Positions 21,444 to 53,247 of a stretch of DNA of 64,000 bases are shown in pieces; within the stretch, counting starts at the first letter, position 1; every line of letters starts with the position of its first letter. A model generated the notes under the pieces. It had not been told where the DNA came from. It ran no database searches and saw only the letters and a program-made list of their open reading frames with translations. Made by a program: the position numbers and the translations under genes. The DNA is from Lyngbya confervoides BDU141951. GTDB lineage: Bacteria; Cyanobacteriota; Cyanobacteriia; Thermosynechococcales; Thermosynechococcaceae. Location: positions 62,001 to 126,000 of the forward strand of contig NZ_JTHE03000088.1 of NCBI RefSeq assembly GCF_000817775.3. The letters are read 5' to 3'.

Positions 21444-21518
21444 AACGCCAAGCGGACCCAAATCGCCCCAGGCATCTTGCCCTTGAGGGGCCAGCCAGGC
21501 AGGGTGGTCAGGATCCCT

Positions 21519-21563
21519 ATAATTTCTACAGCAATAACTTCTACAGCAATAATTTCTACAGCC
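21519..21563. repeat. Three tandem 15-bp units ending at a start codon
   Basis: ATAATTTCTACAGCA (21519), ATAACTTCTACAGCA (21534) and ATAATTTCTACAGCC (21549) abut one another, and the third ends at the base before ATG 21564. If the frame upstream of the gene were translated, they would read as a five-residue repeat ending in IISTA. No Shine-Dalgarno sequence is present in them. Confidence 0.92.
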
Positions 21564-22430
21564 ATGTGGCAAGAGATCTCAGCCCAGCTTAGTTCTGTCC
21601 TGGGCCAACCCATTCAAATTGAGACCTGGCGGAGCGTCGGCGGTGGCAGTATCAACCAGGCCTATTGGGTCAAAGCAGACCACCAGGAGTTTTTTATCAA
21701 ACTCAACGATGCCGCGAAGGGAGCCATGTTTGAAGCGGAAGCCTTGGGCCTGCAGGAAATCCTTCAGACTTCCACAATTCGGGTGCCGCAGCCCCTTTGC
21801 TGGGGCAATGCCCCTCCCCACAGCTACATCGCTCTAGAGTGGATTCCCCTGGGATCGGGCAATCAACAGGGATGGTATCAACTGGGTCAAAACCTGGCAA
21901 AACTGCACCGGGTTTCTAGCGCGCGGGGATTCGGCTGGTGTCGAGACAATACCATTGGAGAAACCCCCCAGAAAAATCCTTGGACAGATCGCTGGGTGGA
22001 TTTTTTTCGCCGGGAGCGGCTTGGATACCAACTGAGGCTGGCTCAAAAACGGGGAGCTAATTTCCCAGGTGCAGAGGCACTACTCGCCGCCTTAGACAGC
22101 TTGCTCAACCACGATCCCCAGCCCTCCCTGGTGCATGGAGATCTCTGGTCTGGGAATGCGGGCTTTAGCCAGGAAGGAGATCCCTTGATTTTTGACCCAG
22201 CCCCCTACTACGGCGATCGAGAAGTGGATCTGGCAATGACCGAACTATTTGGGGGATTTCCTGCGGCATTTTACCAGGGATATCAAGCGGAAGATCCTGT
22301 CGGTGAGGGGTATGCACAGCGAAGGCCCATTTATAACCTTTACCATGTGCTCAATCACTTTAATCTGTTTGGCGGGAGCTATCAGGCCCAAGCTCGGCAA
22401 ATGATTCAGACCCTCGTCAGCGCGCTCTAG
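21564..22430 (+). CDS. Fructosamine kinase family protein
   Basis: This 288-residue protein has the aminoglycoside-phosphotransferase fold of the fructosamine-3-kinase family: SVGGGSINQAYWV, the ATP-site Lys in EFFIKLN, ALEWIPLG, the catalytic loop LVHGDLWSGNAGF and the metal site PLIFDPAPYYGDREVDLAMTELFGGF. These kinases phosphorylate sugars attached to protein amines, leading to repair of glycated proteins. The start is set at ATG 21564, where family conservation begins; the frame is open upstream but only through a tandem repeat. No Shine-Dalgarno sequence precedes the start. Confidence 0.92.
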   Translation: MWQEISAQLSSVLGQPIQIETWRSVGGGSINQAYWVKADHQEFFIKLNDAAKGAMFEAEALGLQEILQTSTIRVPQPLCWGNAPPHSYIALEWIPLGSGNQQGWYQLGQNLAKLHRVSSARGFGWCRDNTIGETPQKNPWTDRWVDFFRRERLGYQLRLAQKRGANFPGAEALLAALDSLLNHDPQPSLVHGDLWSGNAGFSQEGDPLIFDPAPYYGDREVDLAMTELFGGFPAAFYQGYQAEDPVGEGYAQRRPIYNLYHVLNHFNLFGGSYQAQARQMIQTLVSAL

Positions 22431-48654: not shown

Positions 48655-50988
48655 TTGCCTGCTGATATCTCAACAGATGCGGGGGAAGCATCGTTAGATA
48701 TCAAGGACCCGGTCACAAGTATGCCTAATCGTTTGCTAGCCTTCGACCCCTTCGCGGAAGGCCCCCTGCTCAGCCATTCCCTCGATGGCCAGAACAATAA
48801 TCTTGAACAGCCGCAATGGGGCAGTCGAGATAGCCAGATCCTCAATCTTGCGCCTCTCGACTATGGGGATGGCATTGCGACGCCAGCCGGCAGCGATCGC
48901 CCTGGAGCCAGGGACATTAGCAACCAGGTCGCGCAGCAAGACCAGCCGCGTCCCGACCCGCGGGGCCTCACCAATCTGGTGTGGGCTATGGGGCAGTTTC
49001 TAGACCACGACCTGGACCTGACGCCAGGGCAAAGTAACGCAGAAGGCGGGGCTGAAACCTTTGATATCAGGGTGCCCGTGGGAGATCCTTACCTCGACCC
49101 CCAGGGGCAGGGCAACCAATGGATTCGCTTCCATCGCTCCGAGTTTTTGGCCGGCACCAGCACCGACCTAGGCAATCCTCGCCAGATCCCGAATCGAGTC
49201 ACGGCCTGGATAGACGGCTCAAACATCTACGGTTCATCGCCAGAGCGTTTGGCCCTCCTGCGCAGTTTCCGCGATGGCCAGATGAAGGTCAGCGCCGGGA
49301 ATTTGCTCCCCCTTGATCTAGGCCAGAATAACGATAACCCCGGTCCCTCCACCCAATTGTTTTTAGCGGGGGATGTGCGAGCCAATGAGAACATAGTGCT
49401 CTCCTCTATGCATACGCTGCTGGTGAGAGAGCACAATCGCCTTGCCGCTGAGCTCCAGGACATCCACAGCGACTGGTCCGAGGAACAGCTTTTTCAGCGG
49501 GCTCGGCAGATCAACATTGCACAGCTGCAAAAGATTGTCTTTGACGACTATATTCCTCTGCTCCTAGGACGTCCCTTACCGGAGTATCGGGGTTACGATC
49601 CCAGCGTTCATCCCGGAATTAGCCGCACCTTTTCCACCGCCGCTTTTCGCTTTGGTCACACCATGGTCAGTCCAGAGATTGCCCGCCTAGATGGCCAAGG
49701 GGCCGTCATTCCCGAAGGCAATGTCAACCTGGCAGCGGCCTTCTTTCCCAACGCGGAGGTCTTACAAACCACTGGAATTGAACCCGTCTTACGGGGTAGC
49801 GTTTCCACCCTGGCCCAGGCGGTAGACAATCAGGTCATCCATGAGCTGCGTAACTTACTCTTTAGCTTTGGCGGCCAACTCGCGGCCCAGGACTTAATGG
49901 CACTCAATATTCAGCGGGGGCGTGATCATGGCCTTGCGGACTACAACTCGGTGCGCGCGGCCTTTGGCCTGAATCGAGTCGCAAACTTTGCGCAAATGAC
50001 CCAAGACCTCAATCAACAGGAAAAATTAGCACAGATCTACGGAAGCGTGGACAACATCGATGCCGTTGTCGGTCTATTTGCCGAAGATCCAGTGCCAGGA
50101 GGCAGTGTGGGAGAAACCATTGCCACGGTTTTGCAAGATCAGTTTACGCGACTGCGCAATGGCGATCGCTTCTACTACAAAAATAGTCTCACTCCAGCAG
50201 AAATTAAAGTCATTGAGGGCACAAGTTTTGCGGATATTATCCGCCGGAATACCAACTCCCCCATTGTGCAGGAGAATGTGTTTACCCTGCAACAGTCGGG
50301 AACCCAGAGCAATGACGAGCTGCGCGGTGGCCTTGGGGATGACGTAATCCTCGGCTATCAAGGCGATGATAGCCTGCGGGGATATTTTGGCAACGATAGG
50401 CTCTACGGCCATGGTGGATCTGATCTAATTAAAGGAGAGGAAGGCGACGACACTCTCATGGGTGGCCCCGGAAACGACCGCTTAATAGGAGGTTCAGGCA
50501 ATGACTACCTGGCGGGAAATCAAGGCAACGATAGCCTCGTGGCGGGATCTGGAAACGATATCTTGAAGGGGGGCATGGGCAGAGATTCACTGATGGGGCA
50601 AGCGGGGAACGATCAACTCGTGGGAGGTGCCGACGATGATTGGCTCAACGGCGGCGGCGGAAACGATAGGATTCTGGGGACCAGCCACTCCAAAGCCGGC
50701 CGCTTTGAGCACGATGTTCTCATTGGTCAGGGCGGCAAGGACAAATTTATGTTAGGTAATCCCCACACCGCCTTCTACGCCGCCAATGGTCCTCAGGATT
50801 TTGCCGCCATCTTAGATTTTCAGGTCGGCGAAGATAAGCTTGTGCTCCATGGAACAGCAGCAGACTATCGGACGGAACAGGACTCCACCACCACACTGAT
50901 TTACTGGGAACACAGGGGACAATCGGAGTTGATCGCCATGGTGAATACGGGGATCTCCATTAACAGCACCACTGCCCTGTTTCGCTAG
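48655..50988 (+). CDS. Animal-type haem peroxidase with C-terminal RTX calcium-binding repeats
   Basis: The N-terminal 560 residues are a peroxidase-cyclooxygenase domain: the distal His in MGQFLDHDLDLTP, Arg and proximal His in FRFGHTMVSPEI, and the NIQRGRDHGLADYN motif. The last 200 residues hold about ten nonapeptides of the GGxGxDxLx type, which bind calcium and mark type I secretion through an uncleaved C-terminus. Such cyanobacterial peroxidases have been described as peroxicins. Likely it is exported and produces reactive halogen or oxygen species. The start is uncertain: TTG 48655 with AAGGG, or ATG 48721; a strong ribosome site and ATG lie further upstream but are cut off by TAG 48637. 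No secretion genes are adjacent. Confidence 0.88.
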   Translation: MPADISTDAGEASLDIKDPVTSMPNRLLAFDPFAEGPLLSHSLDGQNNNLEQPQWGSRDSQILNLAPLDYGDGIATPAGSDRPGARDISNQVAQQDQPRPDPRGLTNLVWAMGQFLDHDLDLTPGQSNAEGGAETFDIRVPVGDPYLDPQGQGNQWIRFHRSEFLAGTSTDLGNPRQIPNRVTAWIDGSNIYGSSPERLALLRSFRDGQMKVSAGNLLPLDLGQNNDNPGPSTQLFLAGDVRANENIVLSSMHTLLVREHNRLAAELQDIHSDWSEEQLFQRARQINIAQLQKIVFDDYIPLLLGRPLPEYRGYDPSVHPGISRTFSTAAFRFGHTMVSPEIARLDGQGAVIPEGNVNLAAAFFPNAEVLQTTGIEPVLRGSVSTLAQAVDNQVIHELRNLLFSFGGQLAAQDLMALNIQRGRDHGLADYNSVRAAFGLNRVANFAQMTQDLNQQEKLAQIYGSVDNIDAVVGLFAEDPVPGGSVGETIATVLQDQFTRLRNGDRFYYKNSLTPAEIKVIEGTSFADIIRRNTNSPIVQENVFTLQQSGTQSNDELRGGLGDDVILGYQGDDSLRGYFGNDRLYGHGGSDLIKGEEGDDTLMGGPGNDRLIGGSGNDYLAGNQGNDSLVAGSGNDILKGGMGRDSLMGQAGNDQLVGGADDDWLNGGGGNDRILGTSHSKAGRFEHDVLIGQGGKDKFMLGNPHTAFYAANGPQDFAAILDFQVGEDKLVLHGTAADYRTEQDSTTTLIYWEHRGQSELIAMVNTGISINSTTALFR

Positions 50989-51179: not shown

Positions 51180-52088
51180 TCAGGCCGACTTGAGATTCCT
51201 CGCTTCCTCCACCATCTGCTCAATCAGGGGCGAGAGGATAATTTCCATGGCAAACCCCATCTTGCCGCCCGGAACAACCAGCGTTGTGTGACGGGACATG
51301 AAGGACCCTGAAATCATACTAAGCAGGTAGGGAAAGTCGATATGAAAGCGATCTCGAAAGCAGCGATTAATATGAATGATGACAAAGCTTTCATCCGCCG
51401 TTGGAATATCGCGAGCAATAAAGGGATTAGAGGTATCGACAGTGGAAACGCGCTGAAAGTTAATATGGGTGCGAGAAAACTGCGGAGTAATATAGTTCAC
51501 ATAGTCGGGCATGCGGCGCAGAATAGTATCAACAATGGCCTCAGGACTGTAGCCCCGCTCCGCATTATCTCGAGAGATTTTTTGAATCCACTCTAGATTT
51601 ACAATCGGCACCACCCCAACCAGAAGGTCGACATACTGGGCCACATCAATCTCTTTGGTGACCAGACCACCATGCAACCCTTCGTAAAAGAGAATATCGC
51701 TGTTGGCATCTAGCGGTTCCCAAGGAGTAAATTCACCGGATTTGCAGTCGGTCCCCAGGCGTTCGTTGTGGTGCTCGGCTTCCTCACCATTGTGCAAATA
51801 GTAGCGTTTTTGGCCTGTTCCAGTTTCGCCATACTCCTTAAAGAGAATCTCTAATTTATCGAGAATATTGGCCTCTACGCCAAAGTGGCTAAAGTTCTTG
51901 CCCTCAGAGGAGGCCTGAGCCATCATTTGACGCATTTCAACGCGGTTATACCTATGATAGCTGTCTCCCTCCACCACCACTGGGGTAATGCCTTCGCGAA
52001 TAAAAATATGTTCAAAGGCGCGTTTAACCGTAGAGGTTCCCGCACCCGAAGACCCGGTAACAGCAATAATGGGATGTTTACTAGACAT
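51180..52088 (-). CDS. prk: Phosphoribulokinase, class I (proteobacterial type)
   Basis: PRK makes ribulose 1,5-bisphosphate from ribulose 5-phosphate and ATP. This 302-residue protein has the short class I form: P-loop TGSSGAGTSTVKRAFEHIF, VVEGDSYHRYNR, FSHFGVEANILDKLE, LFYEGLHGG, VNLEWIQKISRDNAERGYS and FQRVSTVDTSNPFIARDIP. These are the motifs of purple-bacterial PRK. The Calvin-cycle PRK of cyanobacteria and plants is the longer class II protein with GDSGCGKST, which is not in this window. CP12 lies immediately upstream on the same strand, 381 bp away. Whether this is the only PRK of the organism cannot be told here. Confidence 0.92.
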   Translation of the reverse strand: MSSKHPIIAVTGSSGAGTSTVKRAFEHIFIREGITPVVVEGDSYHRYNRVEMRQMMAQASSEGKNFSHFGVEANILDKLEILFKEYGETGTGQKRYYLHNGEEAEHHNERLGTDCKSGEFTPWEPLDANSDILFYEGLHGGLVTKEIDVAQYVDLLVGVVPIVNLEWIQKISRDNAERGYSPEAIVDTILRRMPDYVNYITPQFSRTHINFQRVSTVDTSNPFIARDIPTADESFVIIHINRCFRDRFHIDFPYLLSMISGSFMSRHTTLVVPGGKMGFAMEIILSPLIEQMVEEARNLKSA

Positions 52089-52469
52089 GGTGAAGCGAAA
52101 ATTTAAGGTGAGTTAATGAAGCAGCAGACCCGAAAAAGCCCTTTGATTGGTTTTATCTTAATTTTTAATGACCCCAAAGCAAAGCTTGACTTTCTCCCAG
52201 CCTTCAGCAGTCACCAGACTCAGCGGGACCAGACCGGATCTGCGATCGCGTTTACCCCCGCCTCGGTCCTTCGTCCAATCACTGGCGCTTCGGCTTGTAA
52301 TCGCAAGACACCGGTAAAATTCCCGGAAAAAAGAGCGTGGGCCACCAATAGCCCCACGCTCTTGCCCCATTCGATCCTGTTTTAGAAATTTAGATTTGGC
52401 CTTAGAGCTCAAACCTGAGTCAATCTGGCTCAAATAACGCCCTTGCGCTCAAGTGAGCCCAACGTCACC
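52089..52469 (-). other. Gap between CP12 and prk
   Basis: This 381-bp stretch holds the CP12 terminator near 52325-52363 and the probable promoter region of prk nearer to 52089. One 89-codon frame on the plus strand (52116-52385) crosses the terminator and has no ribosome site, so I do not accept it as a gene. No other structure is visible. Confidence 0.6.
52325..52363 (-). terminator. Intrinsic terminator of CP12
   Basis: On the minus strand AAGAGCGTGGG and CCCACGCTCTT form an 11-bp stem with an 11-base loop and are followed by a run of T (seen as AAAAAA at 52327-52332 on the plus strand). It separates CP12 from prk, so the two are probably transcribed from different promoters or prk by readthrough. 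Confidence 0.88.
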
Positions 52470-52697
52470 CTAGTCTTCATAAATTCTGCACTCAACGGCA
52501 TCGGGATTGTCCGCACAATAGTTATCCAGGGACGTCTTTTCCTCTTCTGCCTTTTGACGTTGGTGGGACGCTTCAGCTTGCAATTCCTCAACAGCATCCC
52601 AGGCCGCAGCACAGGCTTGGGAATCTGAACCATCTGCGCTACAGACTTCTCGGGCAGATTCTATTTCCTGGGAAATTTTTTCTTGAATATCACTCAT
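52470..52697 (-). CDS. cp12: CP12 protein
   Basis: CP12 is a small disordered protein that in the dark bridges PRK and GAPDH into an inactive complex. This 75-residue protein has the core AWDAVEEL (about 31-38), an N-terminal cysteine pair (C19 and C29) and a C-terminal pair (CADNPDAVEC) before the conserved IYED end. All four regulatory cysteines are present. It lies upstream of a class I PRK gene, whereas the classic partner is class II PRK. Confidence 0.95.
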   Translation of the reverse strand: MSDIQEKISQEIESAREVCSADGSDSQACAAAWDAVEELQAEASHQRQKAEEEKTSLDNYCADNPDAVECRIYED

Positions 52698-52800: not shown

Positions 52801-53247
52801 TCACTGCCCCTGAAAACACCTCAGGGCCACCGTCATTAGTTCCGGAGGAATTTCGCCCCTGCGGTTCTTCATTCCCTGGCTCATAACCAGTAACTCCTGA
52901 AAGGTAAAGGTATTTTGGACCTCTCGGAGGGCACATTGGCAATAGGAGGAGGGGAGATTACTAGTTTCACACCCCGCCAGAAACTGCTGCTCGAACAGCG
53001 GATTATGAGTGCTCAGCACAGGAGGGGCAGCCCCACGATTCCCCGAAACTGGGTCGGGAGCGGAGGGGTCTACAGGTCGAACCTCAGCAGGTGCCCCCGG
53101 AATCTGGGGAGAAGTCGATGGCGGGGCAGCCGGTGAGTCGTAGGTGGGATGCTGCTGGACCCAATCTTGCCAGGACTCAGCTCGAACGAGGCTGCCAGAA
53201 AGAATACAAAAACCAGCCAGGGAAAAGGAAAGGATAGATTTCAGCAC
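52801..53247 (-). CDS. Secreted hypothetical protein with proline-rich linker
   Basis: The 148-residue protein starts at GTG 53247 and has a signal peptide (FSLAGFCILSGSLVRA). A proline- and serine-rich middle (about 40-75) connects to a C-terminal domain with four cysteines (LAGCETS, SYCQCALREV, ALRCFQ). The SSYCQCALREV pattern is like small cysteine-containing helical modules of exported cyanobacterial proteins. Function unknown. Confidence 0.7.
   Translation of the reverse strand: MLKSILSFSLAGFCILSGSLVRAESWQDWVQQHPTYDSPAAPPSTSPQIPGAPAEVRPVDPSAPDPVSGNRGAAPPVLSTHNPLFEQQFLAGCETSNLPSSYCQCALREVQNTFTFQELLVMSQGMKNRRGEIPPELMTVALRCFQGQ

Follow-up and report, generated by a model that had tools for sequence, protein, structure and literature searches.

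We report that the 4.85 Mb genome of Lyngbya confervoides BDU141951 encodes two phosphoribulokinases (PRKs), a class I enzyme in the window (the whole stretch of 64,000 nucleotides analysed here, G000:C96:62001-126000) and the usual class II enzyme on another contig. We consider it probable that the class II enzyme is the partner of the CP12 encoded in the window, that the class I enzyme was acquired laterally and is not bound by CP12, and that the neighbouring positions of cp12 and the class I prk gene reflect a rearrangement that did not create an operon. With less assurance, we favour a wider scenario in which a class I PRK blind to CP12 is gained repeatedly by cyanobacteria and at first coexists with the class II enzyme, the two-PRK condition of the window genome, family f34 and most Pseudanabaena. 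The class II enzyme would then disappear, on more than one occasion, after which CP12 would shed the half that binds PRK and retain GAPDH as its only partner. On this view alpha-cyanobacteria, including Prochlorococcus, reached the end of the same route long ago.

The class I prk gene lies downstream of a gene for a CP12 with four cysteines, on the same strand (Table 1), as stated in the preliminary description of this DNA. Specifically, its product scored 491.8 bits against NF011997 (NCBIfam, PRK15453, the class I equivalog; cut-off 362), 68 bits against the class II model, which is below the cut-off of 236, and 28 bits against the uridine kinase model. Among solved structures it matched the R. 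sphaeroides PRK 1A7J (~59% identity, E=2e-103), and the two proteins are identical at the P-loop, D42, H45, R49, H100, E131, K165, R168, D169 and R173, the catalytic positions of 1A7J that were checked. Cys115 and Cys243 are its only cysteines, neither is in a class II regulatory position, and the N- and C-terminal regulatory Cys pairs of the class II type are lacking. In the R. sphaeroides enzyme R31, R234 and R257 are the NADH-site arginines, linked to NADH control. The window PRK has kept R31 and R257, and R234 is replaced by His in this and in all cyanobacterial class I PRKs checked; moreover, R31 is missing from the Pseudanabaena enzyme and R257 from the alpha-cyanobacterial one. Given the His at position 234, NADH-type control may be altered. 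A uridine-kinase-like paralogue, a placement named in the preliminary description among the findings that would refute its reading, is ruled out by the profile scores and by the tree, in which the protein groups with class I. Contamination as the source of the gene was ruled out as well, since the same contig has petH, chlP, a phycobilisome linker gene and atpB/atpC.

Table 1. Features of the window and of the genome discussed in the text
Feature	Position	Strand	Length	Remarks
Class I (proteobacterial/alpha-cyanobacterial type) PRK	51180..52088	(-)	302 aa	NF011997, 1A7J, catalytic residues, tree
Intrinsic terminator	52327..52361	(-)		9-10 bp GC-rich stem, then T6; after CP12, before PRK
Canonical CP12	52470..52697	(-)	75 aa	both Cys pairs (N- and C-terminal), AWDAVEEL
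Orphan ORF	52801-53247	(-)	148 aa	directly upstream of cp12, same strand
Haem peroxidase/RTX protein	48655-50988	(+)	777 aa	adjoins class I PRK
Fructosamine kinase	21477..22430	(+)		PF03881, E=2e-116; 30 kb from cp12
Class II PRK	G000:C76:199141-200136		331 aa	other contig than class I gene

The genome gave exactly two PRK-family matches, the window class I enzyme and a class II enzyme encoded on a different contig. With the class II enzyme present, the class I gene is a second PRK and not a replacement, one of the two possibilities named in the preliminary description. The class II PRK has all four regulatory cysteines (Cys19/41/230/236). Of the solved structures, the one it matched best was the PRK chain of 6GVE, the cyanobacterial GAPDH-CP12-PRK complex, an entry that also contains CP12. 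The window CP12 (106.7 bits against the Pfam CP12 model, PF02672) is of the canonical N/C type with two Cys pairs and AWD_VEEL, and likewise had its best structural match in CP12 as solved in 6GVE and related entries. This genome has close counterparts of the CP12 and PRK components of the Thermosynechococcus GAPDH-CP12-class II PRK complex but, unlike that system, also an extra class I PRK, which is not known to enter the complex. Altogether four CP12-domain genes are present, the canonical one, a short one (C31:24221) and two longer ones (C63:23857 and C108:84898) that include CBS-like sequence and resemble CBS-CP12 fusions, with degenerate CP12 parts.

To follow the distribution of class I PRK we applied the NF011997 cut-off to 386 genomes sampled across the phylum, and 65 passed: the whole of family f2 (alpha-cyanobacteria), the window genome, three genomes of f34/g50, three of Pseudanabaena and one of f29. 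None of the other sampled members of the Thermosynechococcus family, to which the window genome belongs, had class I PRK. Class I and class II occur together in f34, in genome G180 and in 17 Pseudanabaena genomes, and CP12 is intact in all of these. In the phylogenetic tree a single clade (98/92) holds all cyanobacterial class I PRKs; it is placed among gammaproteobacterial sequences and splits into an alpha (100/99) and a beta (100/99) branch; the window PRK groups within the beta branch with those of f34/g50 (98/94, 84% identity). It has ~70% identity to alpha-cyanobacterial and the best gammaproteobacterial enzymes, with which it shares family and catalytic residues. The proteobacterial type proposed earlier for the window PRK is thus right as to its ultimate affinity, the cyanobacterial class I lineage itself having gammaproteobacterial affinity. 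Lateral spread of a cyanobacterial class I gene among beta-cyanobacteria agrees with the patchy distribution. The preliminary description was right about the class I type but incomplete in assigning it mainly to purple bacteria; within the present comparison this is not so, as alpha-cyanobacteria have class I as their standard PRK (PMC9199185, PMC9978339), as in all f2 genomes here. In the literature the bacterial-type PRK is assigned to alpha-cyanobacteria and proteobacteria and the plant-type PRK to the great majority of the remaining cyanobacteria (PMC9978339; PMC9199185); the former is named "bacterial-type" in PMC9978339 and "class III" in PMC9199185.

The relation between CP12 and PRK type can be followed in Pseudanabaena, where every adequately complete genome carries class I PRK; class II PRK is present in the remaining genera of the family, for which the searches run gave no class I match. 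Seven Pseudanabaena genomes (G323, G437, G438, G441, G442, G445 and G447; 96-99% complete, G442 being one contig) lack class II PRK. A single clade of these seven was rejected by a gyrB DNA tree (p-AU 6e-7), so class II has been lost at least twice in the genus. The CP12 segment AWD[AGV]VEELQAE[AS]SHQ is retained in 17 of 17 Pseudanabaena with both PRKs, and in five of the class II-less genomes it reads AWDAVEGLEAEASNQ (G445), AWDHLEELEAEASNQ (G447), AWDHLGELEAEASAPQ (G323), AWDALENLEAETSTPA (G437) and AWNNLEQLAEEATQPD (G438). Over the 18 positions C29-Q46 these five CP12s have 4, 6, 8, 7 and 11 residues unseen in class II-bearing congeners, against 0, 0, 0, 0 and 2 over the last 21, GAPDH-binding positions. 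The alpha-cyanobacteria sampled have class I PRK only, and their CP12 is without the N-terminal Cys pair and without AWD_VEEL, with the C-terminal Cys pair and tail (the GAPDH motif) conserved. The CP12s with the poorest scores in class II-only genomes served as negative controls, and they keep AWD-x-[VIL]-EE even without the N-terminal cysteines. Loss of these cysteines was rejected as a marker of PRK independence, given that CP12s of the class II-only genomes G003 and G412 and one of G039 have lost them and keep AWD_VEEL; it is therefore AWD_VEEL, more than the Cys pair, that tracks class II PRK. The PRK half of CP12 and class II PRK co-vary, and it appears from these comparisons that this half is maintained by class II PRK only.

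An alternative is that the erosion in Pseudanabaena is drift within a lineage, unrelated to the type of PRK. One clade of the five genomes with eroded CP12 was not rejected by the gyrB tree (p-AU 0.22), and in G441 and G442 (L270, L271, L297, L298) class II is absent and the CP12 motif fully intact, both of which would suit drift. We nevertheless regard it as unlikely, because the erosion is limited to the PRK-binding segment and is seen in none of the 17 class II-bearing congeners, and because alpha-cyanobacteria have changed independently in the same direction. For G441/G442 the intact motif suggests a recent loss of class II; it could also mean some binding to class I PRK or another function of the segment. 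As the eroded five possibly represent one event, there are about two events behind the pattern (Pseudanabaena and alpha-cyanobacteria), with one exception, and the small number of independent events together with G441/G442 is the main weakness of our interpretation; for a sign test the phylogenetically independent pairs were too few. An apparently disrupted PRK of P. biceps O153 (G425/G437) was considered as a class II remnant and rejected, being a mirrored class I duplicate with the same neighbours reversed. This region (L283, G425:C17:12000-23000), with one intact and one frameshifted class I PRK, is probably an assembly artefact. In several Pseudanabaena genomes the gyrB reading frames (L340, L341, L342, L343, L344) are ~1086-1089 aa, ~430 aa above the others, and probably contain inteins.

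The preliminary description had also raised the possibility that the class I PRK is under CP12 control, i.e. that the adjacency is a functional pairing in which CP12 bridges GAPDH and the class I enzyme. The same-strand neighbourhood in the window and the intact CP12 motif beside class I PRK alone in G441/G442 are in its favour. The two genes are, however, 381 bp apart with a strong terminator between them, which had been proposed earlier and was recovered by a pattern scan (RNA fold z-score -3.5), and we read cp12 and the class I prk gene as two transcription units on that account. We compared 147 fetched class I stretches (1.43 Mb, the window and its own copies included), and in no other class I locus was cp12 found nearby; the sole other CP12 match in the set is the CP12 locus of G323, which was fetched for its own sake. 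With the linkage in one genome only among these loci, a conserved cp12-prk linkage is rejected, and a cp12-prk operon, in view also of the terminator, is not supported. Since, moreover, CP12 has eroded in the segment that binds PRK in lineages left with class I alone, control of the class I PRK by CP12 is in our view very unlikely. Around the alpha-cyanobacterial class I prk genes we recognised, from their sequences, leuB-like, lpxD-like, accD-like and aldolase-like genes. In nearly all genomes of the Thermosynechococcus family with a readable neighbour, the gene next to cp12 is that for fructosamine kinase, which here is 30 kb away; a rearrangement has therefore brought cp12 and the class I gene together by moving one or the other. 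The neighbourhood would thus be a local rearrangement seen in one genome, with which chance and selection for proximity are both compatible; the prior for placement beside cp12 by chance is low, at about 1 in a few thousand possible gene positions.

Instead, the class I gene could have arrived by a recent transfer and be carried along, neutral or in decay, without contributing to carbon fixation. This would agree with its patchy occurrence (a single genome among those sampled in the Thermosynechococcus family) but is highly improbable, since the reading frame and catalytic residues are intact, comparison with other beta class I genes gave a dN of 0.11-0.16 with dS saturated, which fits purifying selection, and class I is kept in all complete-enough Pseudanabaena and is sufficient as sole PRK in seven.

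In the mechanism that we propose, the native class II PRK would be the partner of the window CP12 in a GAPDH-CP12-PRK dark complex, in which CP12 and GAPDH would silence it. The class I PRK, presumably acquired laterally within the cyanobacterial class I lineage, would make RuBP by the same reaction. From the lack of class II regulatory cysteines and the predicted lack of binding by CP12 we infer that its activity is independent of CP12 and thioredoxin, and an NADH-type effector may still adjust it. Its physiological role might then be to supply RuBP while the class II enzyme is locked.

With respect to known systems, the type of enzyme is familiar and its setting, a genome with two PRKs, has been little described; the CP12-class I pairing itself is ordinary and local. 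Unlike the alpha-cyanobacteria, which have class I alone, this beta-cyanobacterium has class I, class II and a canonical CP12. Classical CP12 has been reported as missing from the marine picoplanktonic group (PMC3906501). In diatoms CP12 is present and the PRK/GAPDH/CP12 complex was not found (PMC9406205); as there, a PRK without complex-supporting cysteines exists here alongside a CP12, but the diatom PRK is plant-type and the escape here would be via a different PRK class. With regard to the Cys pair versus AWD_VEEL comparison, we also refer to elongatus, for which no impairment of the ternary complex is reported (PMC9406205). The literature searched, with incomplete coverage, gave no description of beta-cyanobacteria with both PRKs or of class II-less Pseudanabaena. 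The two-PRK genomes and the Pseudanabaena at differing stages after class II loss would provide the missing intermediates of PRK replacement and of its effects on CP12, and the main interest of our findings lies in this two-PRK stage and in the class II-dependent conservation of CP12. Whether any binding of CP12 to class I PRK occurs, and whether in Prochlorococcus and relatives the Calvin cycle is regulated in the dark through GAPDH alone, can now be tested; moreover, a CP12-independent PRK is of practical interest for carbon-fixation engineering.

Finally, we note some further genes. The protein encoded next to the class I PRK combines an animal-haem-peroxidase domain with RTX calcium-binding repeats, and the orphan ORF upstream of cp12, apparently encoding a secreted protein, had no match in Pfam or NCBIfam. 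The PDB entries 9QKO/9QKP, described as "cyanobacteria specific phosphoribulokinase", were among the structure matches and apparently represent another PRK-like family; a second, weak PRK match of ~320 aa in many of the sampled genomes may belong to it.
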